Positions 17,855 to 55,786 of a stretch of DNA of 64,000 bases are shown here, piece by piece. Every line of letters starts with the position of its first letter. Positions within the stretch are counted from its first letter, which is position 1. The notes under the pieces are model-generated. The model did not search any database, was not told where the DNA came from, and saw only the letters and a program-made list of their open reading frames with translations. Both the position numbers and the translations under genes were made by a program. Origin of the DNA: Beijerinckiaceae bacterium (GTDB lineage: Bacteria; Pseudomonadota; Alphaproteobacteria; Rhizobiales; Beijerinckiaceae); the NCBI GenBank assembly GCA_947452455.1, contig CANGBX010000002.1, positions 248,001 through 312,000 of the forward strand, read 5' to 3'.

Positions 17855-18274
17855 ATGCAGGACCATCACAACGTGCAAACGCCGATAGTCAGCCTGGTCG
17901 CCAAAGAGGGGCAAAATGAAGCCGCGCAGCTCATTGCCCTGCGCAGTTTCTTTGCCTCGATCGACAATATGCGCGCATCGCTCAATCTCGATGTCGAAGA
18001 AATGCTGCTTTATCTGGGCGTCGGATATTTGAATACCGAGCGCATCCAGCAAATTGGCTCGAATGGCTATATCACCTCGACCAATGTTTCGTCTGTCGCT
18101 GACTTTATGAAAATCCCCAAAGAGACGGCTCGACGTAAGATCAAGCGTCTCATCGCCTTGGGGCTGATTGAAAACAAACGCGGCGTTGTGGTGAGCGATG
18201 TCTCACGATGGTTTGCATTCGTGCGGCAAATGCCTTTGTGCACGCATCAAACCGGTGATGCTGAACGTCGCTGA
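17855..18274 (+). CDS. Small winged-helix DNA-binding protein, unrecognised
   Basis: I do not recognise a named family. The 139-residue protein has a helical N-terminal half (AAQLIALRSFFASIDNMRAS, DVEEMLLYLGVGYL). A likely winged-helix segment covers residues of about 65-110: VADFMKIPKETARRKIKRL reads as helix-turn-helix, and IENKRGVVVSD as the wing strands. It is probably a transcription regulator. No effector or oligomerisation domain can be named. The start is uncertain: ATG 17855 has a poor ribosome-binding site, and a GTG at 17873 lies behind AGGA. It converges with the next gene, and their stops abut at 18274/18275. Confidence 0.65.
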   Translation: MQDHHNVQTPIVSLVAKEGQNEAAQLIALRSFFASIDNMRASLNLDVEEMLLYLGVGYLNTERIQQIGSNGYITSTNVSSVADFMKIPKETARRKIKRLIALGLIENKRGVVVSDVSRWFAFVRQMPLCTHQTGDAERR

Positions 18275-18790
18275 TTATTTGCCTTCTTTTTCTTTCTTCT
18301 CAAATTCTTCTGGGAAGAGGCGAGAAAAGACGGTCTCAAATTCTACTTCTTGCGTGGGTTCCCATTCCGCGGGGCGGGGTGGGGCAGTCTTAGAGCCGAC
18401 TGCATATGTATATGTCTTGAAATTCTTCGCCGTCGCATATACGCGGTTCGACTCGCGTGGGCGTCCCTTTAAAGGCGAGCCTATCAAAGCCTTCTTCTTG
18501 CGTTTGACAGTCAGGCTTTCATAATTTGCCGCATACCAGACATAAGACAAAAGCAGACGATCGACATCATCGATTTCGACGGATTCAATGAAGACGAGCA
18601 GACGTTCAATGGCCTGTACCAGGTCAGCTTGCAGCGCTTCAGTGTCATAGATATCATCAAAGGCTTCGGTTAATTCAACCGCAATGGCTTCGGCTTCCTC
18701 ATCGCGCGTCAGGAACACGCGCGTGGCCTGAGCTGCGATCATCTCGAAGACAAATTGGGGCGGGCACTTGCCGCTATTCTCGCTCGCCAT
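18275..18790 (-). CDS. Hypothetical protein
   Basis: Not recognised. The 171-residue product is acidic in its first 90 residues (DEEAEAIAVELTEAFDDIYD), probably helical. A basic patch follows (LTVKRKKKALIGSPLKGRPR), and the tail is charged and ends in EEFEKKEKEGK. No signal peptide or membrane segment is seen, so it is probably cytoplasmic. It lies 12 bases downstream of the Sel1 gene on the same strand, so the two are probably one operon. Codon use is like that of its neighbours. Confidence 0.6.
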   Translation of the reverse strand: MASENSGKCPPQFVFEMIAAQATRVFLTRDEEAEAIAVELTEAFDDIYDTEALQADLVQAIERLLVFIESVEIDDVDRLLLSYVWYAANYESLTVKRKKKALIGSPLKGRPRESNRVYATAKNFKTYTYAVGSKTAPPRPAEWEPTQEVEFETVFSRLFPEEFEKKEKEGK

Positions 18791-18802
18791 ATGCTCTCCC
18801 CC

Positions 18803-19420
18803 TCACAAACGGTCTTTACGAAATTTAGCAAACCATTCATTGGCTTTTTGTTGTGTCTTTAAAAGGTCTGCCTGTTTGATCTTGCTGACAAGCCCATCAC
18901 GTTGGCGCCGCACTTCTGCCTTGCCTGCAGAGAAAGCCAGAGAAGCCCAGTAATAGGCTTCGATGTCATTTGCAAAGCCGAAATCAGGGGAATAGCTGCG
19001 TGCCATAGACACAAGCGCTGCATCATCCCCGCCTTCTGCCATTTTGATGAGCCTGAGCCTTGACCATTCCATGGCCTTTTGCACGACAACCGGTTCGAGC
19101 GTTTTTGCCATGACACGGCGTGCGGATGCGGATTTATTATGTCCACGTACCCCCGCCAGAGTGCTCCAGCGGATGGCCTCGTCATAATTCTGGGGGATGC
19201 CGACACCATGCCAATAGAAGAGGGCCAGGTTATATTGCCCCTCAATATCATTGGCGTCCGAGAGTTCGCGCGCGCGACGCGCAGCGCCGGGCAGGTCGCC
19301 CTTGGTAATGGCATCGCTGACATTTGGCTGAGAGAGTATCTCGTTCTGAGCAAATGCAGGCAGAGACGGCCCGATAAGGCCCAAAAGGCCGACCAGTCCG
19401 AGTGTGAGTTTCAACTTCAT
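18803..19420 (-). CDS. Exported Sel1/TPR-like repeat protein
   Basis: The 205-residue product has a Sec signal peptide (MKLKLTLGLVGLLGLIG..., likely cleaved after AFA near residue 24). A Sel1-like repeat, EGQYNLALFYWHGVGIPQN, is followed by DEAIRWSTLAGVRGH, and a second degenerate repeat includes DAALVSMARSYSPDFGFANDIEAYYWASLA. Sel1 repeats mediate protein contacts; a periplasmic role is inferred. The partner is unknown. The ATG at 19420 lies behind an AGGCGGACGG stretch; an earlier ATG at 19447 would put nine residues before the signal peptide. The upstream 230 bases are AT-rich. Confidence 0.7.
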   Translation of the reverse strand: MKLKLTLGLVGLLGLIGPSLPAFAQNEILSQPNVSDAITKGDLPGAARRARELSDANDIEGQYNLALFYWHGVGIPQNYDEAIRWSTLAGVRGHNKSASARRVMAKTLEPVVVQKAMEWSRLRLIKMAEGGDDAALVSMARSYSPDFGFANDIEAYYWASLAFSAGKAEVRRQRDGLVSKIKQADLLKTQQKANEWFAKFRKDRL

Positions 19421-19657
19421 CCGTCCGCCTGCAGAGAATTGGCTCAATTGAACACTTCTTTATCCGATATTTTATGAAGAAAGGTGAAGAGGGCTTGGCC
19501 TTTGTCTTTCTTGATTCAAACAGAGGCAATCCTTTAAGTCTATGCCATATAATTATAATTTTAGATTTGAGTGATTTTGTCTTTATGAAATATCGTTGAG
19601 CCGCAAGAGCAAAACACTAAAATGAGTTTCTTGCATCATATTAGTTTCCAAAAAAGC

Positions 19658-19684
19658 TAAAGTTTGGAATGGACGATCCGTCTT
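19658..19684 (+). promoter_or_regulatory. sigma28 (FliA)-type promoter of the unknown gene at 19719
   Basis: TAAAGTTT begins at 19658 and TCCGTCTT at 19677, with exactly 15 bases between TAAA and TCCG. The same arrangement precedes both flagellins and flgM. Enterobacterial FliA boxes are TAAAGTTT-N11-GCCGATAA: the -35 is identical and the -10 shares the CCG core. Confidence 0.75.
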
Positions 19685-19718
19685 AGGAGTTACGGTTAGG
19701 TCTCTATGGACGAAAACC

Positions 19719-20441
19719 ATGTTTGAACGCGTTCAAAATGACGGGGTAGGCCCCAAAACTGCGACGGTGGGTGCACAAGCACGCGCCGATCTTGCTGTTT
19801 CGCCTGCACCCGCCTCAAGCGAGTTGCGCGAGAAAGCTGTTGCTCCGGCAACCAATGGTCAGAAGTCATCAACCGAGCAAGATGCGACTGACCATTCGGT
19901 TCATCTCTTGGGGCAGGTGCGCCATGAGATCGACGCTATCAGTGCTGCTGATCAAAATACGAAAAAGCTCGATGAGCTCTATTCAAAGCTCTTCAAAGCT
20001 TATGATGCTGCCAAGCAGGGCCCGCTTCCGGCAGAAATGAAGACGGAAATTGATCGCACTCTGGACGAGCTTGATAAGCATGACGCGGTGCATCAGATCG
20101 GTCAGGGTGATGGGCCGGTCGATGTTTCCGAGGAAACAGCGGCCGATCTGGCTTTGCGTCAACAGCGTGAGCGCACGATCGACAAGATTGCAAATGCTTT
20201 ACGTAAAGTAGGTGTTTTGCGCAACAAGCTATCAGATAGCAGCCAGAGCGCGCATGAACGCCTGCTTAACATCAATTCGTCGCTGTCGGGTCTGAACATG
20301 GCTCGTACGCAGGTCGATGAGAATCAATTCTCGATAGAAAATGCCTCTTCGACTGTTGATTCTGTCATGATCAACCTGCGTAGCCTAGTTTTGGCCCACG
20401 GCAAGATTTCATCCGATGTTGTGCGTATCGTGATGAGCTAA
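19719..20441 (+). CDS. Unknown protein of the predicted FliA regulon, flagellin-like C-terminus
   Basis: Not a recognised family. The 240-residue product has no signal peptide or membrane span. The first 60 residues are Ala/Ser/Thr-rich and probably disordered. Helices follow (LLGQVRHEIDAISAADQNTK and QQRERTIDKIANALRKVGVL). The last 47 residues, ARTQVDENQFSIENAS then STVDSVMINLRSLVLAHGKI, have a hydrophobic pattern resembling the flagellin C-terminal D0 helix (SRIxDxDYxxExxxxxxxQIxxxxxxxVLAQ). That likeness is weak and is my inference. A FliA-type promoter precedes it, and a terminator shared with the convergent glycosyltransferase follows. A filament-associated, secreted or chaperone role is possible. 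Confidence 0.75.
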   Translation: MFERVQNDGVGPKTATVGAQARADLAVSPAPASSELREKAVAPATNGQKSSTEQDATDHSVHLLGQVRHEIDAISAADQNTKKLDELYSKLFKAYDAAKQGPLPAEMKTEIDRTLDELDKHDAVHQIGQGDGPVDVSEETAADLALRQQRERTIDKIANALRKVGVLRNKLSDSSQSAHERLLNINSSLSGLNMARTQVDENQFSIENASSTVDSVMINLRSLVLAHGKISSDVVRIVMS

Positions 20442-20443
20442 GT

Positions 20444-20479
20444 CAAAACCCGCTGACCAACCAGCAGGTTTTGTTTTTT
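20444..20479 (+). terminator. Rho-independent terminator between the 19719 gene and the glycosyltransferase gene
   Basis: CAAAACC-C-GCTG pairs with CAGC-A-GGTTTTG around an ACCAAC loop, with one opposed mismatch, followed by TTTTTT on the plus strand. The other strand has a short T-run too, so it may act in both directions. Confidence 0.75.
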
Positions 20480-22694
20480 AGATCATGTCATGTTTTTTGG
20501 CGACATCGAGAAGCAGGGCTTCAAAGTCGCGGGCAAAACCCACCGTATCATAGAGCTCAGATGTTGCGATGCCTGAACGCAGACGTTCTTTTATGGCGTC
20601 GATCTTTGCGCGGTCAGTTGCGAGCTCGTAGGCTTTTTCTTCATAGGCCTGATAATTATCGGTCACGAGGTCATGAAGGCCTGCCGATGTCAAAATGCTT
20701 GCCGCCACACGTGAGGCAAATGTCTCTCCCTGAATGGTCAGGACAGGCAGGCCCGCAAAGAGTGCATCGCTTGCTGTTGTATGGGCATTACAAGGGAACG
20801 TGTCGAGAAGCAGGTCGCCATGCGCCTGTCGCGAAATATGATCCCCCTGGTTGCAGCGCGGTGTGAAGATCAGACGATCCTCAGCAATACCCCGGATTGC
20901 GGCTTCTTTGATGAGATTGTCTTTGGCATAATCATTGTCAGCCATGATCCAGAGAACGGAACTTTCGACCCGCGTAAGCAAGCGGCACCATATATCAAAG
21001 ATTTCGGGTTCGATTTTATAGTTATTATTAAATGAGCAGAATACGAATGCATTTTCCGGCAAGCCGAGCTGCTCGCGACTGAAAATGCGCCCATTATTCT
21101 TGCGTGTTGAATCATTGACTTGATAGCAGCGGGACAGCCTTAGAACTTTTTCATTATAATTTTGTTCGTGCTGAGGCGGAATGAGCACATCATCTGCGAT
21201 GATATAGTCGATATAATCTGAGCCCATTGTACCTGGGAATCCGAGGTAATTGATCTGCACCGGTGCCGCACGATGTGCAAAAATGCTGGCTCTTGAATGT
21301 GTTGTGTATCCTTTGAGGTCGATTGCTATGTCGATTTCGAAATAGCGTGCCAGCAAAGCTACAGCGCGGTCTGTAAGGGGACGTACATCCATAAAATGAT
21401 CAAAAGCCATTTCGGCACGAATGCGCATTTTATCCATGCGCTCCGGCCCGAATGAGAAACCAAAGATTTCGAATTTTGACTTATCATGAATCTCAAAAAA
21501 GCGCGCCATAAGTATCATTGTGGCATGTTCTGAGAAGTCTGCTGAGAAATAGCCAACGCGAATTTTACGCCCGTCCGCCTTACGCGGTTCAATGGCTTCG
21601 ATATCTTTTCGATTGGGATGCAGTTGTTGGCAGAAAAGCTCAGCAGATTTTTGCAGCAATTTGGGGTCATAGGTCCAAGCCAGAAGATTGAATGGATAAG
21701 CGCTCAGTTTGTTCTGTCGCAACCCATCCCAAGCTTCTTCTTGAAGTGCCTTAACTCCATCCCAGTCGCATATTTGCCGTTTGACATGGATGAGATCGCT
21801 GATCGCTGAGGCAGGGCAATCCTTTATCGATATTGCCCGTTCATAATCTCGAACAGCTGCATGATAGTCGTGAGTTAATATGTGCACCTGGCCGGTGTGT
21901 AAAAAACCGATATGCGATTCAGGGAAGAGCTCTTCCATCTTCCCAAAGCATTCTAAGGCTTCTTGATAGCGTGCTGCTTTGAAATAAATCTGTCCCTCAC
22001 CATACCAAGCATTGATCGACTTGGGGTCTTCATCCTTGGCAGTTTTGAAATATTCGAGGGCTTGAACAAAATCACCCAATTCAAGATGGATGATCCCAAG
22101 AGTTTCCAGTGTCTTAATATGTTTGGGGTCGTGGTCTAGGATTGTCTTTGCTTCTCGAATTGCGTCCTCATAAGCACCAAGTCCTTTGAACGCTATTACA
22201 AGATTAATACGTGCGTATAGGTCTTCCGGCTTTGCCTGAAGGTAGGTCGTATAATGTACGACCGCCTGAGCAAAATTGCCCCGGTCAATCTCAATGTTAC
22301 CAAGATGAAACCATGCCTCGACTTCAGGGGCATTACCTAAAGTTGATTGTTCGAACGCGAAGAAGGCCTCGTCGCGTCTGTCAGCTCGCAAGAGGCACAT
22401 TCCCCTCACGAAATGGGCTAAAGGAAAATGAGGGGCGATACGAAGCGCCTCGTCTAAATCGACTAGGGCTGCCTCGTGGTGTTTGGCTTCATCAAAAATC
22501 TGGGCACGGAAGATGTGCCCCATCAAATTGTCTGGGTTTCTATCTAGTATATGACAAAGGAGCTCCAATGCCTCGGACGATTTGCCCTGGCGAAGTAGAT
22601 TAAAGACATCAGCCTCGAGCTCGCGGTCCGTCTTATCCGCGAGCGCTCTTGTTGAGGTGTCGCCTATGCTCCGGGCGGCTAAATGAAAATTCAT
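20478..22694 (-). CDS. TPR / GT41 O-GlcNAc-transferase-like glycosyltransferase, probably for flagellin
   Basis: The N-terminal 310 residues or so are tandem TPR repeats (for example AWYGEGQIYFKAARYQEALE). The C-terminal 370 residues match the O-linked GlcNAc transferase (SPINDLY/OGT, GT41) catalytic domain. VGYFSADFSEHATM near residue 385 corresponds to the OGT catalytic-His region, GFPGTMGSDYIDYIIAD follows, then FCSFNNNYKIEPEIFDIW with the UDP-binding lysine, and DTFPCNAHTTASDALFAGLP. Such enzymes transfer a UDP-sugar to Ser/Thr. It has 738 residues. It stands next to two flagellin genes and has its own sigma54 promoter, so flagellin O-glycosylation is the likely role. The sugar is unknown. 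Confidence 0.88.
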   Translation of the reverse strand: MNFHLAARSIGDTSTRALADKTDRELEADVFNLLRQGKSSEALELLCHILDRNPDNLMGHIFRAQIFDEAKHHEAALVDLDEALRIAPHFPLAHFVRGMCLLRADRRDEAFFAFEQSTLGNAPEVEAWFHLGNIEIDRGNFAQAVVHYTTYLQAKPEDLYARINLVIAFKGLGAYEDAIREAKTILDHDPKHIKTLETLGIIHLELGDFVQALEYFKTAKDEDPKSINAWYGEGQIYFKAARYQEALECFGKMEELFPESHIGFLHTGQVHILTHDYHAAVRDYERAISIKDCPASAISDLIHVKRQICDWDGVKALQEEAWDGLRQNKLSAYPFNLLAWTYDPKLLQKSAELFCQQLHPNRKDIEAIEPRKADGRKIRVGYFSADFSEHATMILMARFFEIHDKSKFEIFGFSFGPERMDKMRIRAEMAFDHFMDVRPLTDRAVALLARYFEIDIAIDLKGYTTHSRASIFAHRAAPVQINYLGFPGTMGSDYIDYIIADDVLIPPQHEQNYNEKVLRLSRCYQVNDSTRKNNGRIFSREQLGLPENAFVFCSFNNNYKIEPEIFDIWCRLLTRVESSVLWIMADNDYAKDNLIKEAAIRGIAEDRLIFTPRCNQGDHISRQAHGDLLLDTFPCNAHTTASDALFAGLPVLTIQGETFASRVAASILTSAGLHDLVTDNYQAYEEKAYELATDRAKIDAIKERLRSGIATSELYDTVGFARDFEALLLDVAKKHDMI

Positions 22695-22885: not shown

Positions 22886-23737
22886 ATGACAGTCATCAAC
22901 ACCAATGTGGCTTCGCTCAATGCGCAAGCTGCGATCACAAGCAACGCACGTGGCCTAGCGAAGGCTATGCAGCAATTGTCAACGGGTCGTCGGATTAATT
23001 CCGCCGCTGATGATGCTGCGGGTCTCGCGATTGCGGACAAGTTGACGATGCAGATCCGTGGCCTGAACCAGGCCATCCGCAACGCCAATGACGGCATTTC
23101 GATGCTGCAGACCGCTGAAGGTGCGACGAACGAAATCACGAACATGCTCCAGCGCATGCGTGAATTGGCGGTGCAGTCGGCCAACGACACAAATGGTGTT
23201 GCGGAACGTTCTTCGCTCCACGCTGAATTCGACCAACTGCGCACAGAAATCAACCGTATTGCAAACACCACGCAGTTTAACGGTTTCAACATGCTTGATG
23301 GCGGCTCTGCTGCTGGCGGCTTATCCGGTGGTGTTGCCACTTTCCATATTGGTGATGCGGGATCATCTTCGGTCCAGGTTACCTTCGGTTTTGTTGACTT
23401 CCGCACTTCAGCTAGCGGTCTTGCTGTTGATATTTCTCAGTCAACGCTGTCTGGAACAGGTGGTCTTTCGGCGATCAGCGCTGTGAACGATGTCATTCTC
23501 AAAGTTGACAGGCAGCGTGCTAGCATGGGTGCTTTGATCAATCGCTTTCAATATACGGTTGATAATCTGACCAATGTTGTGACCAACGCGTCTTCCTCGC
23601 GTAGCCGCATTGTTGACGCAGATTACTCAACGGTTACTGCAGATCTTGCTAAAGCACAGATCATTCAGCAGGCTGCGACGTCGATGTTGGCGCAGGCAAA
23701 TCAATTGCCACAGTCAGTCTTGGCACTTCTCAAATAA
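22886..23737 (+). CDS. fliC: Flagellin 1
   Basis: Filament subunit, secreted through the flagellar export channel. The 283-residue protein has the conserved N-terminal D0/D1 region ([59 protein letters not shown]) and the C-terminal D1/D0 region ([37 protein letters not shown]). The variable outer domain, residues of about 135-195, is very short, so the surface is small; Ser/Thr there could be sugar sites for the adjacent GT41 enzyme. It has a good GAAGGAG site, a FliA-type promoter and its own terminator. It is nearly identical to the next flagellin over the first 135 residues. Confidence 0.96.
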
Positions 23738-23900: not shown

Positions 23901-24755
23901 ATGACAGTCATCAACACGAACGTAGCCTCGCTCAATGCGCAGGCTGCTATTTCGTCAAATGCGCGTAGCCTTGGAAAGGCTATGCAGCAATTGTCGACAG
24001 GGCGCCGTATTAATTCGGCGGCAGACGATGCGGCTGGTCTGGCCATTTCAGACAAATTGACGATGCAGATCCGCGGTCTGAACCAGGCAATCCGTAATGC
24101 CAATGACGGCATTTCGATGCTGCAGACAGCGGAAGGTGCGACCAACGAAATCACCAATATGCTTCAGCGTATGCGTGAATTGGCCGTGCAATCTGCCAAC
24201 GACACGAATGGTGTGGCAGAACGTTCATCACTTCATGCTGAATTTGATCAGCTGCGCACGGAAATCAATCGTATTGCAAATACCACGCAGTACAACGGTT
24301 TCAATATTCTTGATGGTGGCGCTGCTTCTGGCGGATTGTCGGGAGGCATTGCCACTTTCCATATTGGGGATGCTGGGTCAACTTCGGTCCAGGTTACATT
24401 TGGTTTCGTTGACTTCCGCGGTAACACAGCAAGTGGTTTGGCTGCGGGGATTTCAACGGCCGCCTTGACCGGCACAAGTGGTCTTTCTGCTATCTCTGCG
24501 GTGAATGATGTTATTCTCAAGGTCGATGAGAAGCGCGCATTGATGGGCGCTTTGATCAATCGCTTTCAGTATACGGTCGACAATCTGACCAACGTGTCTA
24601 CCAATGCATCTGCTTCGCGCAGCCGCGTTGTGGATGCAGACTATTCCATGGCAACTGCTGATCTTGCTAAGTCGCAGATCATTCAGCAGGCCGCGACCTC
24701 AATGCTGGCTCAGGCTAACCAAGCGCCTCAGTCCGTGTTGACCCTGCTAAAGTAA
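23901..24755 (+). CDS. Flagellin 2
   Basis: Second flagellin, 284 residues, a tandem paralogue of flagellin 1. The N-terminal region differs by only a handful of residues in the first 135 (for example [14 protein letters not shown] against [14 protein letters not shown]); differences concentrate in the short outer segment of about residues 170-190 and near the C-terminus ([20 protein letters not shown]). The ATG at 23901 follows a GGAG site; an in-frame ATG at 23871 would add ten residues before the conserved MTVINTN start and is unlikely. It has its own FliA-type promoter and terminator, so the two filament proteins can be made in different amounts. Confidence 0.95.
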
Positions 24756-24867: not shown

Positions 24868-26421
24868 ATGGTCACCAGTGTCAATAATTCGACATCCAGT
24901 ATTGGCTCGACGAAGACGGTGTCTTCTTCGTCGTCTTCCAGTACAGCGAGTTCAAGCTCATCGACGTCGGAGACGCAAAATACCGGCTCGGCGATCATTG
25001 GCGCGCTTGGCGGCAGTCAGATCGACATTCAGGCCTTGGCGACCAACTTGGTTAACGCCGAGCGCGCGCCCTTGCAGAAGCTGCTCGATGACCAAAAGAC
25101 TGCTCTAGACAATAAAATTTCTTCTATTGGCCGGATTTATTCGTCTGCCAATGACATGAAAAGCCAGCTGGCCGCTTTTGGGAAGGACCCGCGTTTATTT
25201 GCTTATACGCCTCAGTCCAGTGATAGCAGCAAGGCTTCGTTCGTCTTCAAAAGCAATCCAACTAATTTCAACCTCAGCTTTGAGGTAAAACAGCTCGCCA
25301 CCGAAAATTCGGTCACGCTGGAGGGGTTGGATTCTGCGGCAAGCTGGCCGACATCTGGTCAATTGGTGATTACCCAAGGCCGTCGAAGCGGAACACCTGG
25401 GACGGCTCTGACATTCAATTATGCCGATTATACCAGCCTCGATGGTCTGAAGGACGCTATCAATACAGCAGGTCCCTATAAAGCACAGATTCTCACATCA
25501 GTTTCTCCGACGGGGACGACGCGCTATTTGTCGATCAGTCGAGGAACGGGCGCGGAACGCAATTTCTTTGTTTCGACAAAGAATGGCAATGCTGATTTGA
25601 CGACAGGTCTTTATGTTACACCACCAACCTATACGGGCGGCACACTGACCACCGACCCCGGTCAGGCCAATGGCGTCGATGCCAAGATCGTTTCGGGTGG
25701 GCACGAATATACCAATTTCAAGAACAGCTTCGCTGATCTGATGCCCGGCGTGACTGTTACAGTGAATGCGGTGACTGACACCAATAAACCAGTCAATCTG
25801 TCGACAGCTGTCGATACATCGAAATTCACCAGTATCGTTCGCCAGATCGTGTCATCTTACAATGATTTGCAGGGTACAATCAGCGACGAGATCAAATATG
25901 ATCTCGATGTCAAAAAACGTGGTGGTTTGGCCAACGATTATGTGGCGCGCAGTTTCCTTGGACAAATGCGTCGTATGACAACTGATTCAATTACCACGCT
26001 CAATGGTAACAGTGTCAGCCTTTCTTCGCTTGGCGTTCGCACCAATATTGATGGATCTTTGACAATCGATGAAACCAAGCTCACGGCTGCCACGCAAAAT
26101 CCGGATTTGATGGAAGCTGTTCTAGCCTCGACAACCAGTTCATCCAGCACCATTAAAGGTGCTTTTGAAAAGATGAATGATTTTGCCGATATGATCATGG
26201 GCAAAGACGGTGCTTTGGTCACGCTTTATAATAAGACCGAAACAACTGATATGAAAAAATATCAAGATAAAATTGATAAATTGAACAATGACATGGATTC
26301 GCTCAAGCAGCGCTACATGAAGCAGTTCATCTCCATGCAGGATTATCTGAATACAACAAAGTCAGCGCAAAATTCACTGACACAATCCATGACGGCGTGG
26401 ACCGCCTCCATGAAGGGTTAA
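24868..26421 (+). CDS. fliD: Flagellar filament cap protein FliD (HAP2)
   Basis: FliD forms the cap under which flagellin is folded and inserted at the filament tip. The 517-residue protein begins with a Ser/Thr-rich disordered stretch of about 45 residues, then the FliD N-terminal domain (SQIDIQALATNLVNAERAPL, LQKLLDDQKTALDNKISSIG). A central beta-rich part follows, then the FliD C-terminal domain (SKFTSIVRQIVSSYNDLQG, then SLGVRTNIDGSLTIDETKL) and a final coiled coil with YMKQFISMQDYLNT. The Ser-rich start, longer than usual, could be glycosylated. It is followed within 16 bases by a small gene on the same strand. Confidence 0.93.
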   Translation: MVTSVNNSTSSIGSTKTVSSSSSSSTASSSSSTSETQNTGSAIIGALGGSQIDIQALATNLVNAERAPLQKLLDDQKTALDNKISSIGRIYSSANDMKSQLAAFGKDPRLFAYTPQSSDSSKASFVFKSNPTNFNLSFEVKQLATENSVTLEGLDSAASWPTSGQLVITQGRRSGTPGTALTFNYADYTSLDGLKDAINTAGPYKAQILTSVSPTGTTRYLSISRGTGAERNFFVSTKNGNADLTTGLYVTPPTYTGGTLTTDPGQANGVDAKIVSGGHEYTNFKNSFADLMPGVTVTVNAVTDTNKPVNLSTAVDTSKFTSIVRQIVSSYNDLQGTISDEIKYDLDVKKRGGLANDYVARSFLGQMRRMTTDSITTLNGNSVSLSSLGVRTNIDGSLTIDETKLTAATQNPDLMEAVLASTTSSSSTIKGAFEKMNDFADMIMGKDGALVTLYNKTETTDMKKYQDKIDKLNNDMDSLKQRYMKQFISMQDYLNTTKSAQNSLTQSMTAWTASMKG

Positions 26422-26436
26422 TAAAAGGAGTGAATC

Positions 26437-26628
26437 ATGAAGTACAAGGTTGAATGGATCATCAACGGCGAAGTGGCTGTTGAAGCTGATAGCAAAGAAC
26501 AGGCTGAGCAACTTGTTGAGCAGCTTTTGGTTGGCACGCTCACCGATGGTGATCGCTGGCCTGCAGAGCTCGGCGCGCAGGGCATTCAGGGTGCTGCAAC
26601 TGTTCTTGAAGGCGAATTGGTCGCCTAA
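26437..26628 (+). CDS. Small hypothetical protein downstream of fliD
   Basis: A 63-residue acidic protein, not recognised. It starts MKYKVEWIINGEVAVEADSK and reads as two beta strands, then a helix (EQAEQLVEQLLVG), then a short tail. A strong AAAGGAG site about 8 bases upstream and the 15-base gap from fliD argue that it is a real gene in the fliD operon. It could be a small chaperone or regulator at the position where fliS usually lies, but no FliS similarity is visible. Confidence 0.65.
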   Translation: MKYKVEWIINGEVAVEADSKEQAEQLVEQLLVGTLTDGDRWPAELGAQGIQGAATVLEGELVA

Positions 26629-26654
26629 TTGGCGGCCAATCACCATCTTTGACC

Positions 26655-27167
26655 ATGTCAGAGAGTGCTTTCACGCGGATCAACGCGCTAGAATTATCGC
26701 GTTTGACGGAGCCTGAGCGCCAGGCTGCGACCGTGGAAGTGCGCGGTCTTCTGGATGCGATTGCCGGAAGTGGCAAGCATGATGTCGAGACACTTACACA
26801 TAAGGTGGCTCTTCTAAAAATTTGGCAGAAATTGGTGCATATGCGCGTGCTCGATGTCTCTCGCAATGTACCGCCACCTCATGAAAAGCTCGAGGCGAAA
26901 CGGCTCTATCCGGATAGCCCCTTGTTTGACGTGGCTGCAGAACAAGGCGCCCGCGATGAAGCAGCAAGCCTACAGGAAGATGAATCCAATGGGCTGGTTC
27001 TGGTCCGGACGTTAACTGAAGGCGTTGTGCAAGGTATGCGCTTGCCGGCTGGGGTCACCGTGGAGACCTCGGCAGCAGACGCTGAGACGCTGGTTGAAAG
27101 CGGACTCGGCATTATTATCCAGCGGGCCGACATCCGTCCGGACGAAAAAGTCACACGCGCTAAATAA
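26655..27167 (+). CDS. Hypothetical protein of the fliD operon
   Basis: A 170-residue cytoplasmic-looking protein, not recognised. The first 65 residues are helical and amphipathic (LSRLTEPERQAATVEVRGLL, then ETLTHKVALLKIWQKLVHMR). A charged disordered middle follows, and the last 60 residues suggest a small beta domain (GVTVETSAADAETLVESGLG). The position after fliD and its small follower fits fliT or another flagellar chaperone. That is inference from position only. Start ATG 26655 is chosen over TTG 26649. The stop is 11 bases from the convergent muramidase gene. Confidence 0.65.
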   Translation: MSESAFTRINALELSRLTEPERQAATVEVRGLLDAIAGSGKHDVETLTHKVALLKIWQKLVHMRVLDVSRNVPPPHEKLEAKRLYPDSPLFDVAAEQGARDEAASLQEDESNGLVLVRTLTEGVVQGMRLPAGVTVETSAADAETLVESGLGIIIQRADIRPDEKVTRAK

Positions 27168-28299: not shown

Positions 28300-28779
28300 A
28301 TGGATTCGTTTGTCGTCGCGCTCATCACGGGCATGGTCTTGTTGATCATGATTGCTGTTGCGACGCTTCATGCGCATCAGAGCCGTCAGTTACGCGAAAT
28401 CCAAGAGCGGCTTGAAGCTATGGGCGCTGAAAATAAGCGCAAAGAGGAAAATCTGCGCTTTCAGCGAACTGAGGTGATGGACCCGATCTCGCAGCTTGAA
28501 ATCCAGCTCATCAATCAAGAGCGGAAATTTCTGACCGAGCAAGAGATTGTGTCGATCTTGAAGGCGCGAGAGCAAATGAAACAGATCAGCGATGAGTTGA
28601 AGAAGCTCGAAGCTTGGCGTGGTGCGCCCTATGATCTGGAATGGGCAGAATATCTCGAGCGTGTTCCAGTTCTCAAAACTCTATATTTGCGCGCCGTGCA
28701 AGATCAGCTTCCGGCAGATCAGATGGAGAATACGGCGCCGACCGATCCCGCTCAGCCGGCGCCTGCTCCAGTTACTTAA
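28300..28779 (+). CDS. Membrane-anchored coiled-coil protein, unknown
   Basis: Not recognised. The 159-residue protein has one N-terminal transmembrane helix (SFVVALITGMVLLIMIAVAT, residues of about 3-22) and a long charged coiled coil (RQLREIQERLEAMGAENKRK, then LTEQEIVSILKAREQMKQIS). A compact segment with YDLEWAEYLERVP follows, then a Pro/Ala tail. The bulk should face the cytoplasm. The start at ATG 28300 puts the helix at the N-terminus; an earlier TTG-type start at 28273 overlaps the promoter. It has a sigma70 promoter, unlike its flagellar neighbours. Its last eight bases overlap flgL on the other strand. Confidence 0.7.
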   Translation: MDSFVVALITGMVLLIMIAVATLHAHQSRQLREIQERLEAMGAENKRKEENLRFQRTEVMDPISQLEIQLINQERKFLTEQEIVSILKAREQMKQISDELKKLEAWRGAPYDLEWAEYLERVPVLKTLYLRAVQDQLPADQMENTAPTDPAQPAPAPVT

Positions 28780-29674
28780 GATAGTTAAACAGAGATAGAT
28801 CGGACATGCGCACGAATGATGATTGAGCCGCCTCCAAGCTCGTCATTTTCTGCTTCAATTCCGTAATTGCTTTTTCAATATCAGTATCTTCCAAAGACGA
28901 CAGGCGGCTTCTTGTGGCGAGCATGTCGCTTGTCAGCGTATCTGCTGTTGAATTCACACGTGCCAAACGCGCACCATTAATGGCATGAAATCCATTGATG
29001 TGGTCAGAGGCTGCTTGCAGATCCAACAAGCTCCCACCTGCAGATTCGCCAGCATTCAGATTGTTCGTAATCGTTTGAACAATTTCAAAGACGGATTTGG
29101 CAGAATTGCCACTTGTCTTGACCGCCATAAAAACTTCATGACCCGACGAGCTGACTTCCATTTCCGTATCATCTGCAATGGTCAGTGATAGGCGGCCTGT
29201 GTCACCATGATAAGTCGTGAGACCGCTTGTTGCGCTGAATGGTTCCTGGTTTGCCAGATAACCTGAAAACAGATAGCTGCCATCACCTGACTTCGTATTC
29301 GCCAGCGACACAAGTTCTGAGTTCAAACTGGTCACTTCTGCCGCAATCGCTTTACGATCGGCTGACGAATAAGTGTCATTGGAAGCTTGAACGGTCAGTT
29401 CCTTGACTCGTGTCAGAATGTTTGTGACTTGTGTCAGCACGCTGTCTTCCGTCGAGAGACGTTGTGTCAGGCTTTGTGTAGTCTTGTCATATTGTTCAAG
29501 GCGCGATTCGCGGGCCTTTAAAATAGATATGGCCGAGAATGCGACAGGGTCATCGGACGGTTTTGTGACTTTTTTGCCCGTCGCAATACGATCTTCCAGC
29601 TGCGCTGTCTGAGTCTTCAGGTCAGTGATATTTTCGCTTTGCTGACGAAAGAATGTGGTTGTGCTGATTTGCAT
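28772..29674 (-). CDS. flgL: Hook-filament junction protein FlgL (HAP3)
   Basis: FlgL joins the hook-associated FlgK to the flagellin filament. The 300-residue protein begins MQISTTTFFRQQSENITDLK and carries the flagellin-like N-terminal motif EDRIATGKKVTKPSDDPVAFS and VKELTVQASNDTYSSADRKA. Its C-terminal helix is flagellin-like too (TDIEKAITELKQKMTSLEAA). Size and placement after flgK are standard. It is the last gene of the flgB-L operon. Confidence 0.93.
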   Translation of the reverse strand: MQISTTTFFRQQSENITDLKTQTAQLEDRIATGKKVTKPSDDPVAFSAISILKARESRLEQYDKTTQSLTQRLSTEDSVLTQVTNILTRVKELTVQASNDTYSSADRKAIAAEVTSLNSELVSLANTKSGDGSYLFSGYLANQEPFSATSGLTTYHGDTGRLSLTIADDTEMEVSSSGHEVFMAVKTSGNSAKSVFEIVQTITNNLNAGESAGGSLLDLQAASDHINGFHAINGARLARVNSTADTLTSDMLATRSRLSSLEDTDIEKAITELKQKMTSLEAAQSSFVRMSDLSLFNYLK

Positions 29675-29683
29675 GACGAACCT

Positions 29684-32600
29684 TTAGAAGCTTCTCAGAA
29701 TGGTTTCGAACATTTGACGGGCTGAGGATACGACTTGTGCAGCAGCCTGGTAGGCTTGTTGGAACCGGATCAAGTCAGACGCTTCCTTGTCGAGATTGAC
29801 ACCAGTCTTCGCCTCATAGGCTGACTTCAGATCTGAAGCAGTCTGCTTGCTGGACGAGGCCGACATTTCTGCCGAATTGACAGTAGAACCCAAAGTGCCG
29901 GCAACAGTGGTGTAAATGTCCGTGAACGAGCCTTGGTTTTCACCAAAGATCGACCGTGTGGCCATTGACGAAATGGACTGCGCATTACGGCTGTCACCTG
30001 ATCGCGTGGCATCATTGCTAATATCAAAAACATCACCAGCTTGCGCGTTACCAGAGATGTTGAAATTAATGCCAAGATAAGTGACGTCTTGATCTGGTAT
30101 CCACGAGCGGGTGGCGAGGCTCACGCCACTCTTTCGGTCGATGATTTCCAATTTATTATTGGAGAGAACCTTGACCGTGATATTCGGGAACGGGACGGCA
30201 CTCGTATCACGCGTACCCATTTGAGCCGCAATGCGTCGCAATCCATTAATGTCCTGATTGTCCAATTGGACGATCATATCTTCCGGTGCAACGGACGCCA
30301 ACTCGATCTTGCTTCCTGCCACAGAGCGCGAGGCGCTTGTATCAATGAGATTATTGTTCTGATCCGCCGCTGTGGATGTCAGTTTGATCTGCGTGCCAAT
30401 CGACAATGTATCTTCGTCATTGCCATTAAATCCCAGTGACGTGGCATTGGCATCATCTGTTGTCAAGTTGCGTTGCAAACCCGGTTTCATTGAAGGTCCG
30501 GCGATCTTTAGATGTCCATCAATGACTTCCCAAGATGTCGCACCAATGAGGCCTTTGGGCGCGTCAATTGCAATTGATGATCCATCAGCCAGATTAAATG
30601 TCGCCGGGGACGTGGCGAGCATAGATTCTGCAAATGGGGTCGTTGCAATCAACGCGCCCGAGCCGTCAAATGTCTCTTGGCCGCCAAAGCCAAGAGCATT
30701 TGCGAATTTTTTATAATCTGTTGTTGAAGTGTCGATGCGCAGAGAGCGGTCATCACTGCGCAATTGCAGTCGCCCATTCACTGTTGACCACGACACACCA
30801 TTCGAGGACCCTGATGTGCCTGTCAACGTCAATGTCATTGCGCCCACGGACGTACCACTGACGCGTAATTGCGGTGCGCGCCCTGCCAGCAACGCATCAT
30901 CCAGAGACGCGGCAGCGGTGACAAAACCATCACCGGGTGTATCGCGCTGAGGTCCAAGGAAGCCCAAATCTTGAGCGACCTTTTGTGAATTCGCATTTCC
31001 GGCGGCAACACTGGCAGCAAGATACGGGCTTGAGATCCTCAGACGACCATCGACAATCGACCAGGTTCCATTTGCGCCTTGCCCTGAAGCCGCATTAATC
31101 GTCAAACGGCTGTTATCGGCGAGCGTAACTGTGACAGGCTGTGTTGCCAGTAGCGCTGTTGAGAGATTGGTAGTCGCAGACAAAATCCCATTTTGTGCTG
31201 TTTCATTGCCGGTAAAGCCCAGCATATCGGCCAGCATTTTGTCTGTATTTTGGCTCAGTACTTTGAGTGATGAATCACTGCTGGTGAGCACCAATTTGTC
31301 GTTCTGAATAGACCATGAGATGCCACCCGATTGTCCCGATACGGAATCAAGTATGATGGTTTTATCACCGATCACATTGCCCATGAGATGCAATTTGGGT
31401 TTGCGCGCACTCAGTAGTGCCGGCACCAATTGTGTTGAACCGGTAACTTGACTCGAACGCGTTACATCAAGGTCAGCACCCAGAAATCCGAGACGCTTGG
31501 CGCTATCACGCTGCGCAACCGTCTCTGCAATGATGGACACATCAGGGTCAGATGAGGTGAGGCTCAGCTTGCCATTGGCCATCTTCCAGGAAAAATCGCC
31601 AACGCTGTTGCTGGCTTGACCGATGGTCAAGGTTTGTAAATGAAGATTATTTGTGCCGTTGACGATTTGAAGGTTCGCGTCACTGCTGCTTGTGACAACG
31701 AGATCGCCTGAACTGTTAAATTGCCAAGAGATATCTCCATTCTTGCCACTGGTACGGTCAATGAACAGTGACATTTCAGGTGTCGTATTGCCTCTGACAC
31801 GAATTTTACGCTGCCCTGTGAGCAGGGTCAGAGTATCGGTTCCAGTTCCATTCATGACCGCCTGGGGCGGGGCCGCAGCAGCTGTCAAAATTGTGGATGT
31901 TGGTTTGGCAGAAAGCCCCAAAGTGGCAGCCGTTACGGCATCAGCTGCAATCGAAATATCAGGCGGTAGAGCGCGCATTGTCGCTGGCGCTGCGATCACC
32001 AATCGCGCTTGAGAAGGAATATCTGCATTGGGTACAAGGTTAATTTGAAGATCAAGAGGCCCCGTGATGCTGAAGCTGCCCGTATTCAGATAAGACCCAT
32101 CCAAGGCAATGAGATTATTGACGTCACCTGTTGCTTGCTTGCTCGTAAATGTCACGACATTGGTCGAGCCCGACTTAAGCGCAGCTGTCCACGCCCGTTG
32201 CGATGTCGAAAAATTATTGATGATGGCATCACCGCCGGTGCCGGTCACAAAAGCTTGTGCCACTTCGGCGGCGCTCATATCGCGTGTTGCGCGAACGGTC
32301 ATGCCATCGATTGCGAGAACTTGACCTGCTGACAGGGTCGAGAATGTGACGTCGGCTTTTTCAGCTGTGCTTACTGTGCCTGCAGCCGTGTTGATGGTGG
32401 GCAAAGTTGGGCCCACGGCATCGCTCGGACGTGAGCCCGGCGTATAAGTGATCTGATGATCCTGCCCATCAATGCTGACGGTGAAATGAAGGGGCTCTCC
32501 ATTTGGCGGTATCGTCACATCCTTGCCTAGCCAGCTGCGACGTGTGGCGAAGGAATTAATCTGCTGCGTGAGCAAATCGGAAATTCCAGCCGCGTCGCGT

Positions 32601-34810
32601 GCACCAATCGCATCACCCGCTAGGCGGATCGGCGGCAGGCCAACTATGTCCATGCCATAGAGAGCACCTGGCGATGTGCCATTGCCATTGGCAGCTGGAA
32701 CCTGATTATAAAGGCTCTGTGCAACATCAATTGTTGCCGATGTCTTTGTTGCCAGCGTGAGCGACAAAAGATCATTGGCAGTTGAAAGGTTGAGGCCGCG
32801 ATATCCGGTATTGACGCTCGGGGGACGGTAGAACGCTTCAGACAGGAAACCATTCGCGGTAGTGACGAATGCCGCGGCCTCAGACTCGGTCATCGCGGGT
32901 CCCGTCAATTGACGGCCATCCCGCGTGAATAGGCGCATCGATGCAGCACTGCTGGCTTGTTCAGTGTCTGCTTTGATGCTCGTTGCTAATCCCGCTTTGG
33001 TAAAACCGTCGAGGGATCCGCTCGAAATCGTATGCGTTCCAAGGGCGCTGATCGAAAGAGCGCCTCCCGAAACATTTGCGTAAATTTCACTGGAGGCGCC
33101 GATATTGTTGGCGGCGTCATTGATGGCTTTGGCGAGATCCGCCATGCCAGTTCCCATCGGGTGAAGCACTAGTTTGCGTTGAACAGAACTGTTCGTGCCG
33201 GCATCCAAAGTGAACGACAGGCTCAATCCGCCTGCGCCTTGTCCATCGCTATTACCAAGAGCCAGTATGTCACTGGCTGAGGCGTTGAAACGAAGGGATG
33301 GCATAGTGCCAAGCGATGTGAGGGTAGAGGGGCCTGTACCTGCCTGAATGACGAAGGCCGCACCATTGCGCAAGAAATCGACACCCGCGAGGCTGGTACC
33401 AGAAAACAGATCTGCAGCATTGGGAAGCGGAACAGGTGTGGAGGCCGCGTTGCGGTTCGTCACGGAAACAACGCCGGAACCTTGATTGCCTGTCCCTTGG
33501 TCCACATATAGCGGGAGGGCGGCAGCGATTTCCGATGGTGTTTTGCGCAGGAAACGCATGCCTGAAGCAGCATTGTTCAGTGGCTCTGCAAAGAAAACAT
33601 CTTTCGCTGAGAATGTGCCTTCGAAGGTAAAATCAACGCCATCTAGAGACACGCTCCTGGCACCGGAAGCGGAGCCACCATAGCTGGATGTCACGGTCCA
33701 TGTTGACTTATTGGGGTCGTAACGCCCGGTATATGTTGCCCCCTTAAGTTGCGCAGCGGTTGTGACCTCCAGGCTCATTTTGGTGAGGCCAGTATTGCTG
33801 GGACCCGCTTTGGCAGTCAGGCTATCAGTTGAAAATAATTGTTTACCCTGATTGCCATCCTGATCCACGCCAAGTGAATGTTGCTGATTGACAGCAGATG
33901 CAAATCCAACGGCCAAGCGATCCACATTTTGCATGAGCGTTGTGGCTTCACGTCGGAAATCCATCAAGCCAGCAAGCATGCCGCTTTTTATTTGCGTTGT
34001 AATGCTTGGATTGCTGTTCGGGTCGAATGCAATGTCGAGGCGCGCGCCAGTCTTCAGCGCACCCAATTGATGCGCGCCATCGCTACTGAGAAGTTTCTGA
34101 CCTGAGGCAGTATCACCCAAATAAAGCGTGATAGATCCATTGTTGGCTTCAACCGTGGTGAAGCTTGTCAGATCTGACAAATTTTGAAGCAATTTATCGC
34201 GTTGATCGAGCAGATCATTGGGCTTCTGGTCGCCAGCAGCACTGCGTGCAATTTCATTATTGAGGCGTGCCAATTGACTGGTGATGACATTCACCTGGCT
34301 TAAAGCCGCATCAATAGCCGATTCAACCGACTGCATATTTGTTTTGATTTGATTGGCAGCAGAGCGGAATGAAGTGGCTACACGTTCACCTGCATCAAGA
34401 AGGGTGAGGCGGGTTGAAGTCGAGGTTGGTGAGCTCGCAAGCTGCGAGAAAGTTGCATAGAAATTCTGCACCTCAGTCGACATATTCGACGCATTGGTGA
34501 AGACAGATTTTTCCAATTGCGACAGGGTTTCAGCCAAAGTTGAGGACTGTTTCGCTTGTGCATTGGAATTATAGGTTTGTGCTTGCAGAAAAGAATCTGT
34601 TCCACGACGAACGGCATCCACCAAGACGCCCGAACCCGATGTTGTGGGTCGAGCTGTAGGCAGCATGGTGCTTTCGCCCGTTGCCTGCAAAGAGACATCA
34701 CGGCGCACATAGCCTTCCGTATTGGCATTGACGATATTGCTGCCCACTGTTTCCAGGAGCTTGCGATATGCCGTCAGGCCGGAAGAGCCTATGCCAAGGA
34801 TGTCGGGCAT
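29684..34810 (-). CDS. flgK: Hook-associated protein FlgK (HAP1), giant form
   Basis: FlgK is the first junction zone between hook and filament. The conserved ends are both present. The N-terminus has MPDILGIGSSGLTAYRKLLE and GSNIVNANTEGYVRRDVSLQ, with the long FlgK coiled-coil region after it, and the C-terminus has DKEASDLIRFQQAYQAAAQV and SARQMFETILRSF. The length of 1708 residues is about three times the usual 450-650. A large insertion from about residue 330 to 1560 is beta-rich and Ser/Thr/Asp-rich, and between about 960 and 1460 shows degenerate repeats. The frame is unbroken for 5.1 kb. Rhodobacter sphaeroides Fla1 FlgK is also known to be enlarged by a central region. Confidence 0.93.
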   Translation of the reverse strand: MPDILGIGSSGLTAYRKLLETVGSNIVNANTEGYVRRDVSLQATGESTMLPTARPTTSGSGVLVDAVRRGTDSFLQAQTYNSNAQAKQSSTLAETLSQLEKSVFTNASNMSTEVQNFYATFSQLASSPTSTSTRLTLLDAGERVATSFRSAANQIKTNMQSVESAIDAALSQVNVITSQLARLNNEIARSAAGDQKPNDLLDQRDKLLQNLSDLTSFTTVEANNGSITLYLGDTASGQKLLSSDGAHQLGALKTGARLDIAFDPNSNPSITTQIKSGMLAGLMDFRREATTLMQNVDRLAVGFASAVNQQHSLGVDQDGNQGKQLFSTDSLTAKAGPSNTGLTKMSLEVTTAAQLKGATYTGRYDPNKSTWTVTSSYGGSASGARSVSLDGVDFTFEGTFSAKDVFFAEPLNNAASGMRFLRKTPSEIAAALPLYVDQGTGNQGSGVVSVTNRNAASTPVPLPNAADLFSGTSLAGVDFLRNGAAFVIQAGTGPSTLTSLGTMPSLRFNASASDILALGNSDGQGAGGLSLSFTLDAGTNSSVQRKLVLHPMGTGMADLAKAINDAANNIGASSEIYANVSGGALSISALGTHTISSGSLDGFTKAGLATSIKADTEQASSAASMRLFTRDGRQLTGPAMTESEAAAFVTTANGFLSEAFYRPPSVNTGYRGLNLSTANDLLSLTLATKTSATIDVAQSLYNQVPAANGNGTSPGALYGMDIVGLPPIRLAGDAIGARDAAGISDLLTQQINSFATRRSWLGKDVTIPPNGEPLHFTVSIDGQDHQITYTPGSRPSDAVGPTLPTINTAAGTVSTAEKADVTFSTLSAGQVLAIDGMTVRATRDMSAAEVAQAFVTGTGGDAIINNFSTSQRAWTAALKSGSTNVVTFTSKQATGDVNNLIALDGSYLNTGSFSITGPLDLQINLVPNADIPSQARLVIAAPATMRALPPDISIAADAVTAATLGLSAKPTSTILTAAAAPPQAVMNGTGTDTLTLLTGQRKIRVRGNTTPEMSLFIDRTSGKNGDISWQFNSSGDLVVTSSSDANLQIVNGTNNLHLQTLTIGQASNSVGDFSWKMANGKLSLTSSDPDVSIIAETVAQRDSAKRLGFLGADLDVTRSSQVTGSTQLVPALLSARKPKLHLMGNVIGDKTIILDSVSGQSGGISWSIQNDKLVLTSSDSSLKVLSQNTDKMLADMLGFTGNETAQNGILSATTNLSTALLATQPVTVTLADNSRLTINAASGQGANGTWSIVDGRLRISSPYLAASVAAGNANSQKVAQDLGFLGPQRDTPGDGFVTAAASLDDALLAGRAPQLRVSGTSVGAMTLTLTGTSGSSNGVSWSTVNGRLQLRSDDRSLRIDTSTTDYKKFANALGFGGQETFDGSGALIATTPFAESMLATSPATFNLADGSSIAIDAPKGLIGATSWEVIDGHLKIAGPSMKPGLQRNLTTDDANATSLGFNGNDEDTLSIGTQIKLTSTAADQNNNLIDTSASRSVAGSKIELASVAPEDMIVQLDNQDINGLRRIAAQMGTRDTSAVPFPNITVKVLSNNKLEIIDRKSGVSLATRSWIPDQDVTYLGINFNISGNAQAGDVFDISNDATRSGDSRNAQSISSMATRSIFGENQGSFTDIYTTVAGTLGSTVNSAEMSASSSKQTASDLKSAYEAKTGVNLDKEASDLIRFQQAYQAAAQVVSSARQMFETILRSF
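30400..31930 (-). repeat. Protein-level tandem repeats inside FlgK
   Basis: The translated segment holds about five to six degenerate units of 85-92 residues (the first longer, about 140). Each ends in an LGF[LTGN]G-like motif (LGFLGADLD, LGFTGNETA, LGFLGPQRD, LGFGGQETF, LGFNGNDED at about residues 1107, 1199, 1284, 1374 and 1459). Between them recur ALLAxxP, SGxxGxxSWS and GxLxLxSxD. DNA identity between units is low, so the repeats are old. Confidence 0.7.
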
Positions 34811-48351: not shown

Positions 48352-49077
48352 TTAGGCGTCGTCTTCCTGCATCCATTGACGCAGCTGACCGAGCGCAGCC
48401 TTCTTGAGCTGCGAGACGCGACCAACGGTAACGTCCAGTACTTCGGCGATTTCCTCAAGGTTGAGTTCTTCAACGAAGTAAAGCTGAAGCACCAAGGCCT
48501 CGCGCTCTTTGAGACGCTTCAGATGTTTCTTAAGTGTTTCGCGGAGTTCATCTGCAACGATGGCGCTTTCAGGCGTATGGCCTTCATCCGCAAACCAAAC
48601 CGAATGATCATCATAGACTTCGTCGAGTGACTTGTTGGGTGCGGCAGCGACTTTGTGCTTCCACGAATGGAGCTCGCCAACGGTAATACCCAAATGCTCG
48701 GCCACGAGCTCATGTTTTGTCGGGTCAGCGCCGGCCGCTTTGATGGCCGCCTCTGCTGCGCGGATTTGATCACGGCGCTGTACGCCCAAACGGGTGAGCG
48801 TCAGGTTTTTGCGCAAATGATCGGTGAGGGCACCTCGCACGCGCACTGCGGCATAGGCCGAGAACGAAGCCTGCCCCGTATCTTGGAAACGCTGCGCGGC
48901 TTCAACCAGCGTCAGCATGCCAATCTGGATCAGATCTTCGACTTCAAACAGATCACGGACGCGGCCGTGAATTTGCCAGGCGACTTTGCGCACGAGTGGT
49001 GTGTGCGAGCGCACACGTTCCGCAATCTCGCGAGCATCGCCAGCGGCCGCATCGGCATAGGCGCGAAGTCCGCTCAT
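48352..49077 (-). CDS. fliA: Flagellar sigma factor FliA (sigma28)
   Basis: Alternative sigma factor for late flagellar genes. The 241-residue protein has region 2 (HTPLVRKVAWQIHGRVRDLF, EVEDLIQIGMLTLVEAAQRF and SFSAYAAVRVRGALTDHLRK), region 3 (KHELVAEHLGITVGELHSWK) and region 4 (KEREALVLQLYFVEELNLEE, IAEVLDVTVGRVSQLKKAAL). The length is typical. It overlaps flhG by four bases (ATGA) at the end of the flhA-flhF-flhG-fliA set. Its likely targets in this window are the four FliA-type promoters at 19658, 22788, 23807 and 55736. FlgM at 55787 is its predicted anti-sigma factor. Confidence 0.93.
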   Translation of the reverse strand: MSGLRAYADAAAGDAREIAERVRSHTPLVRKVAWQIHGRVRDLFEVEDLIQIGMLTLVEAAQRFQDTGQASFSAYAAVRVRGALTDHLRKNLTLTRLGVQRRDQIRAAEAAIKAAGADPTKHELVAEHLGITVGELHSWKHKVAAAPNKSLDEVYDDHSVWFADEGHTPESAIVADELRETLKKHLKRLKEREALVLQLYFVEELNLEEIAEVLDVTVGRVSQLKKAALGQLRQWMQEDDA

Positions 49078-55735: not shown

Positions 55736-55762
55736 TAAAGTTTTGGCTTTTCCAACCGTCTT
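55736..55762 (+). promoter_or_regulatory. sigma28 (FliA)-type promoter of flgM
   Basis: TAAAGTTT at 55736 and ACCGTCTT at 55755, with 15 bases between TAAA and ACCG. The stretch CCGTCTTAGG is identical to that before the unknown gene at 19719. A FliA-driven flgM gives feedback control, as known in enterobacteria. Confidence 0.78.
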
Positions 55763-55786
55763 AGGCCCTGTGAGAGGTGAAGTACC

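Follow-up and report, generated by a model that had tools for sequence, protein, structure and literature searches.

As far as is known, flagellin needs both of its ends for assembly, and FlaC of Campylobacter, an unusual flagellin, presumably has both. FlaC is reported to have a chimeric sequence, to be secreted and to be dispensable for motility (PMC4863622); the protein described here would resemble it as a flagellin-like product that is secreted and that motility does not require. In H. pylori, a second report presents HP1076 as a 171-residue, RpoN-dependent protein, D1-domain-like by structure, which competes with flagellin for FliS and whose null strain has no motility defect, and it lists ten positions at which the flagellin FlaB contacts FliS (PMC7248283). 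Here we describe a Beijerinckiaceae gene whose product is best read, on its sequence, as a half-flagellin protein of FliS-type flagella. Like HP1076, it is flagellin-like without the full flagellin architecture and occurs in a FliS-bearing organism; unlike the RpoN-dependent HP1076, with its structurally defined D1 likeness, it resembles CD1 and CD0 by sequence and carries a FliA-type promoter. No sequence match to HP1076 was present among the listed Pfam or PDB matches.

The window, a 64,000-nucleotide stretch of a Beijerinckiaceae contig, contains at 19719-20441 (+) an open reading frame of 240 amino acids with an ATG start, which is supported by the conserved M-x-E-R beginning shared by its homologs. 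Sixteen full-length homologs were found, 28-53% identical over the full length. In line with the preliminary description, the protein has no assigned family at cut-off in Pfam, NCBIfam or PHROGs, and Pfam likewise assigns none of the 17 members at cut-off. Pfam matches of the window protein to NIT, DUF4298, BRE1, Spectrin_Anc-1 and Sirohm_synth_C all fell under the cut-off and were discarded; 27 Pfam families have matches in the 17 members, and of the 25 listed Sirohm_synth_C matches two members and the others one each. The single window protein as query, in a contig scan and in phmmer against PDB, found nothing useful. Three parts can be distinguished: a conserved leader predicted to be disordered (residues 1-50, 19719..19868), in which R22 and L25 are invariant in 17/17; a variable middle (residues 51-140, 19869..20138) with predicted helices at 51-99 and 105-127; and a part (residues 141-240, 20139..20438) that profile comparisons identify as a flagellin C-terminal half, CD1 followed by CD0. 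Compared with L033, its closest homolog, the protein is identical at 34/50, 27/90 and 67/100 positions in these parts, respectively. A leader common to other proteins of the genome was considered and rejected, the only other matches having E values of 1.5 and 4.1. Downstream, a hairpin followed by a T-run (20444..20479, +) is a probable terminator, with a fold energy of -16.5 kcal/mol (z -5.1) equalled by 0/200 shuffles; it is absent from the output of a simple terminator scan. The gene is probably a transcript of its own.

The relationship of the C-terminal part to flagellin is distant but clear at the level of sequence, as strong scores against PDB and shuffled profiles stand beside weak scores against Pfam and the window's own flagellins. 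In PDB the C-terminal profile has 45 matches at E<=0.1, every one of them a flagellin and none FlgL, with a best E value of 7e-8, and when the family profile was compared with all PDB sequences the top 20 of 66 matches at E<=10 were flagellins (best 8.4e-8), in an almost gapless alignment over about 95 residues. Residues ~150-230 align with positions 404-484 of Salmonella-type FliC, with equal lengths on both sides. Comparison of the C-terminal part with flagellins profile to profile, proposed beforehand as a check, bore out the kinship: against 16 flagellins the score was 35.7 (probability 69.7, P 4.2e-5) with the C-termini in register, and the whole-length profile scored 34.7 (probability 38.7). 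Column shuffles reached at most 20.9 (200 profiles), heptad-keeping shuffles at most 25.7 (200 profiles) and the reversed profile 11.0, and coiled coils ranked under flagellins in the PDB search, so that a chance helical likeness was rejected. Family profiles are required to see this likeness, since the window protein alone has no Flagellin_C match in Pfam even at E<=10, and Pfam Flagellin_C is matched by only one of the 17 members, below cut-off (E 0.095). On the window's frames the C-terminal profile finds its own flagellins weakly (E 0.019 and 0.091, against 0.037 for a reversed control), with a small margin between flagellin at 0.019 and FlgL at 0.072; flagellins of a sister genus, searched in frames of three loci, score better (1.7e-8 and 3.1e-6).

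The match is one of sequence homology and takes in CD1 in addition to CD0. The preliminary description had likened only the last 47 residues to flagellin; the likeness holds, and its extent has to be revised to residues ~150-230. Its companion statement, that an N-terminal flagellin half is missing, agrees with our searches: Flagellin_N has no match in the protein at E<=10, and the genome's four Flagellin_N matches all lie elsewhere, none at the gene. By these profile searches the flagellin N-terminal half is absent, and the conserved, predicted-disordered leader and variable helices stand in its place. FlgL (28772-29674), an axial flagellin relative encoded in the window, differs from the protein in having the Flagellin_N half. 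Structure prediction of the protein alone, also suggested earlier as a check, gave no such support: the AlphaFold2 model, built from 8 sequences, is of low confidence (mean pLDDT 68.6, pTM 0.39), and Foldseek returned no match at E<=0.001 and no flagellin. The model predicts disorder at 1-50 and helices at 51-99, 105-127, 141-171, 178-198, 203-226 and 232-239.

With flagellin (FliC, PF00700 region) the protein shares the homology over ~150-230, predicted late FliA-type control and the adjacency of flagellin or fliD; it differs in lacking the Flagellin_N half, in having a new leader and in its tail. There, the Gln of the flagellin AQAN motif is replaced by His in 17/17 members, followed by an invariant Gly, so that His-Gly stands for Gln-Ala, and Arg replaces Leu after the conserved Val; A226 and V235 are kept in 16/17, as are the hydrophobic ends, and S231 and R236 are also invariant. 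The protein is a specialised flagellin derivative and not a flagellin, because the invariant H227, G228, S231 and R236 depart from the flagellin consensus and because the N-terminal half, looked for, is absent. The kinship, the missing N-terminal half and the intact flagellin genes nearby could also be expected of a flagellin that has decayed or been truncated and no longer functions. Such decay is very improbable, since none of the 17 members has an internal stop, the leader is conserved, the promoter is kept in 17/17, and the four tail residues are held invariant in a form that is not the flagellin one.

The promoter concerned, of FliA/sigma28 type, has the form TAAA-N16-CCGTCTTA and lies at 19658..19685 (+), 61 bp before the ATG. 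It had been pointed out that this promoter matches that of flgM, and indeed CCGTCTTAGG occurs twice in the window, at 19678 before the half-flagellin gene and at 55756 before flgM (promoter 55736..55763, +), the two sites being built alike and equally spaced, as TAAAGTTT-N12-CCGTCTTA. The ten bases of CCGTCTTAGG are not rare, 43/100 shuffles giving two matches with one mismatch allowed. In the 3.05 Mb genome, TAAA-N15..17-CCGTCTTA is matched at these two sites only, yet its rarity alone proves nothing because the backward control has four matches; the weight of the promoter case is carried by position and conservation. When the best match within 150 bp before the start codon was taken in each of the 17 members, it lay at -57 to -73 in all of them, with no mismatch in three, one in seven, two in six and three in one, hence at most two mismatches in 16/17; among random 150-mers from the fetched loci, 27/3000 reach this level. 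Among the 15 members with a 16-base spacing the spacer drifts, while TAAA and CCGT are shared by 15/15, a constancy that arises partly by construction as the sites were picked as best matches. Sites before the window's flagellins are weaker (two mismatches within 250 bp), and fliD and the Sel1-repeat gene have sites with three mismatches. The flgM product itself scores 36.5 bits with the NCBIfam FlgM model, close to the cut-off of 40.75. A sigma factor with Sigma70 regions 2 and 4 is encoded at 48352..49077 (-), and its naming as FliA-like follows from these domains and from its flhG/flhF/flhA-like neighbours. The conserved FliA-type promoter at a fixed distance places the half-flagellin gene, as judged from sequence, in the predicted FliA (sigma28) regulon.

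Downstream of the gene lie two flagellin genes with Flagellin_N and Flagellin_C (22886..23737 and 23901..24755, both +) and fliD for the filament cap, with FliD_N and FliD_C (24868..26421, +). In 16/16 other loci, the first recognised gene to one side, no more than ~1.8 kb away, is flagellin or fliD, and a Sel1-repeat gene stands on the opposite side in 14/16; in one of these loci (L036) the gene is near a contig end and in another (L037) the layout differs. The earlier designation as a late flagellar gene can be retained in so far as it rests on the promoter conserved in 17/17 and on this neighbourhood. Three small genes at 17855-19447 (HTH-like, unknown and Sel1-repeat) accompany the half-flagellin gene in most loci. 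In L051, local tblastn identities to the window are 53% for the half-flagellin gene, 57% for fliD and 65 and 67% for the flagellins, against 78-94% for the other ten neighbours. Two small frames after fliD (26437-26628 and 26649-27167, +) are 94% and 78% identical in L051, the product of the second being left unassigned at cut-off by both Pfam and NCBIfam. Taken together, the comparisons demonstrate, at the level of predicted features, a CD1+CD0 half joined via variable helices to a new leader, with its own promoter and in a flagellin/fliD neighbourhood.

Between the half-flagellin gene and the flagellins, a protein with TPR and Glyco_transf_41 (GT41) domains is encoded on the opposite strand (20478-22694, -), which is a candidate flagellin glycosyltransferase. 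Its position as the next gene in the window, and a conserved leader that matches nothing else in the genome and could bind a partner, would suit a flagellum-associated protein with some other role, such as binding a sigma factor, the motor or a glycosylation enzyme, in which the tail merely docks. The glycosyltransferase is, however, not a constant neighbour, having only two weak matches (24-26% identity, in L022 and L037) among the 16 other loci. A glycosylation role is not supported, and we regard another role of this general kind as unlikely.

A search of 397 genomes of the family matched 20, comprising 16 members, two flagellins and two unrelated sequences; 12 of these members are in the window's genus and four in two other genera. 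Seven members are also present in MAG records, six from Beijerinckiaceae and one from Rhizobiales. Order-wide, the only match among 397 genomes was the window's own genome, and class-wide, among 385 genomes, five others were matched, by flagellins in four (G1105, G929, G922 and G790) and by an unrelated sequence in G895; G929 gave two further matches. Of 51 genus genomes, 13 have the half-flagellin gene. A flagellin class scoring >120 bits, a cut set on the score listing in which no match falls between 111.1 and 125.1 bits, is present in 14/51, and FliS at >80 bits in 15/51, each including 13/13 gene carriers. Within the 397 family genomes FliS is found in 38, among them all 16 gene carriers. 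Fisher values for the three co-occurrences are 3e-11, 2e-10 and 2e-18, in which independence is overstated as the genomes are related. The remaining 22/38 FliS-bearing family genomes have no detected copy, and a second search with the 17-row profile revealed no clear member, one of them (G127) giving a 64-residue match at E 0.008; hence the gene is not essential to FliS-type flagella. The two genus genomes with FliS and without the gene, G036 and G380, are 86% and 77% complete, and the flagellin loci of G248, G236 and G036 showed no copy. Since copies go undetected both in FliS-bearing genomes and at flagellin loci, the gene belongs to one branch of FliS-type flagella as an accessory and not as a core part.

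The presence of FliS in every detected carrier (13/13 in the genus, 16/16 in the family sample) fits the main rival explanation, namely that the protein stays in the cytoplasm as a flagellin mimic which, by way of its CD1/CD0 part, would bind FliS or the export gate and set the pace at which flagellin folds or is exported. The half that is kept is the one which FliS binds in flagellin, and HP1076 offers a published precedent of a flagellin-like FliS competitor (PMC7248283). A protein without the N-terminal half could, moreover, not polymerise in the ordinary way. Against this explanation, only about 4/10 of the FlaB positions listed there as FliS contacts keep their residue class in the family, in our own gapless mapping from the C-terminal end, and a contacting Gln is His in 17/17 members. 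The Pfam family of HP1076, FliS_cochap (PF16522), does not appear among the 25 families listed out of 27 for the 17 members, and it is absent from the window protein's five Pfam families at E<=10. Nor does the profile of FliS itself match at the half-flagellin gene, its matches in the genome (E<=0.1) lying at C2:322055 and C1:19429. We regard a cytoplasmic competitor as somewhat less likely than a role at the filament.

The explanation preferred here, though held tentatively, is that of a late, flagellin-derived accessory protein which would leave the cell by the flagellin export path and work at the filament. Three features favour export: conserved ends flank a variable middle, an arrangement also found in flagellin; the gene diverges at the pace of fliD and flagellin; and the family is nearly devoid of Cys (4 in 4123 residues), although low Cys is common to many window proteins of other kinds. 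Ordinary axial subunits need ND0 and ND1, and their absence from the half-flagellin counts against this explanation. In the proposed sequence of events, FliA would switch on the gene together with flgM and flagellin after hook completion, and the flagellin-like tail would admit the protein to the flagellin route (FliS, export gate), with the leader serving to signal export or to bind a partner. Once the protein is exported, its CD0/CD1 helices might attach at the filament end, beneath the cap or at the junction with the hook; incorporation would be in few copies, because without ND0/ND1 ordinary lattice contacts are impossible. A bolder version, which we think rather doubtful, would make the protein a new axial class: a one-sided flagellin held in the filament or junction via CD0/CD1 only, its tail specialised as H-G-x-x-S....R, and acting as a growth terminator, adaptor or regulator. 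A one-ended, late, FliS-linked protein would represent a new component of the filament or else a factor dedicated to pacing flagellin export, and both readings bear on how filament growth starts, gets capped or stops. Searches of the open-access literature, in which subscription papers are mostly not included, found no description of such a protein, and domain libraries miss the gene family despite its kinship with a very well-studied bacterial protein.

A few further observations concern the flagellar genes around and beyond this locus. At the places expected for FlgK and FlgE, the window has open reading frames of 1708 and 1387 residues (29684-34810 and 38630-42793, both -), which would be unusually large for these proteins and whose names rest on position. 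Outside the window, the same genome encodes at G000:C2:27013-27402 a flagellin that scores lower (101 bits) and falls into a second class, which suggests a second flagellar system. In genome G248, a 2659-residue open reading frame (L071, 1764-9743, +) lies directly upstream of flagellin.
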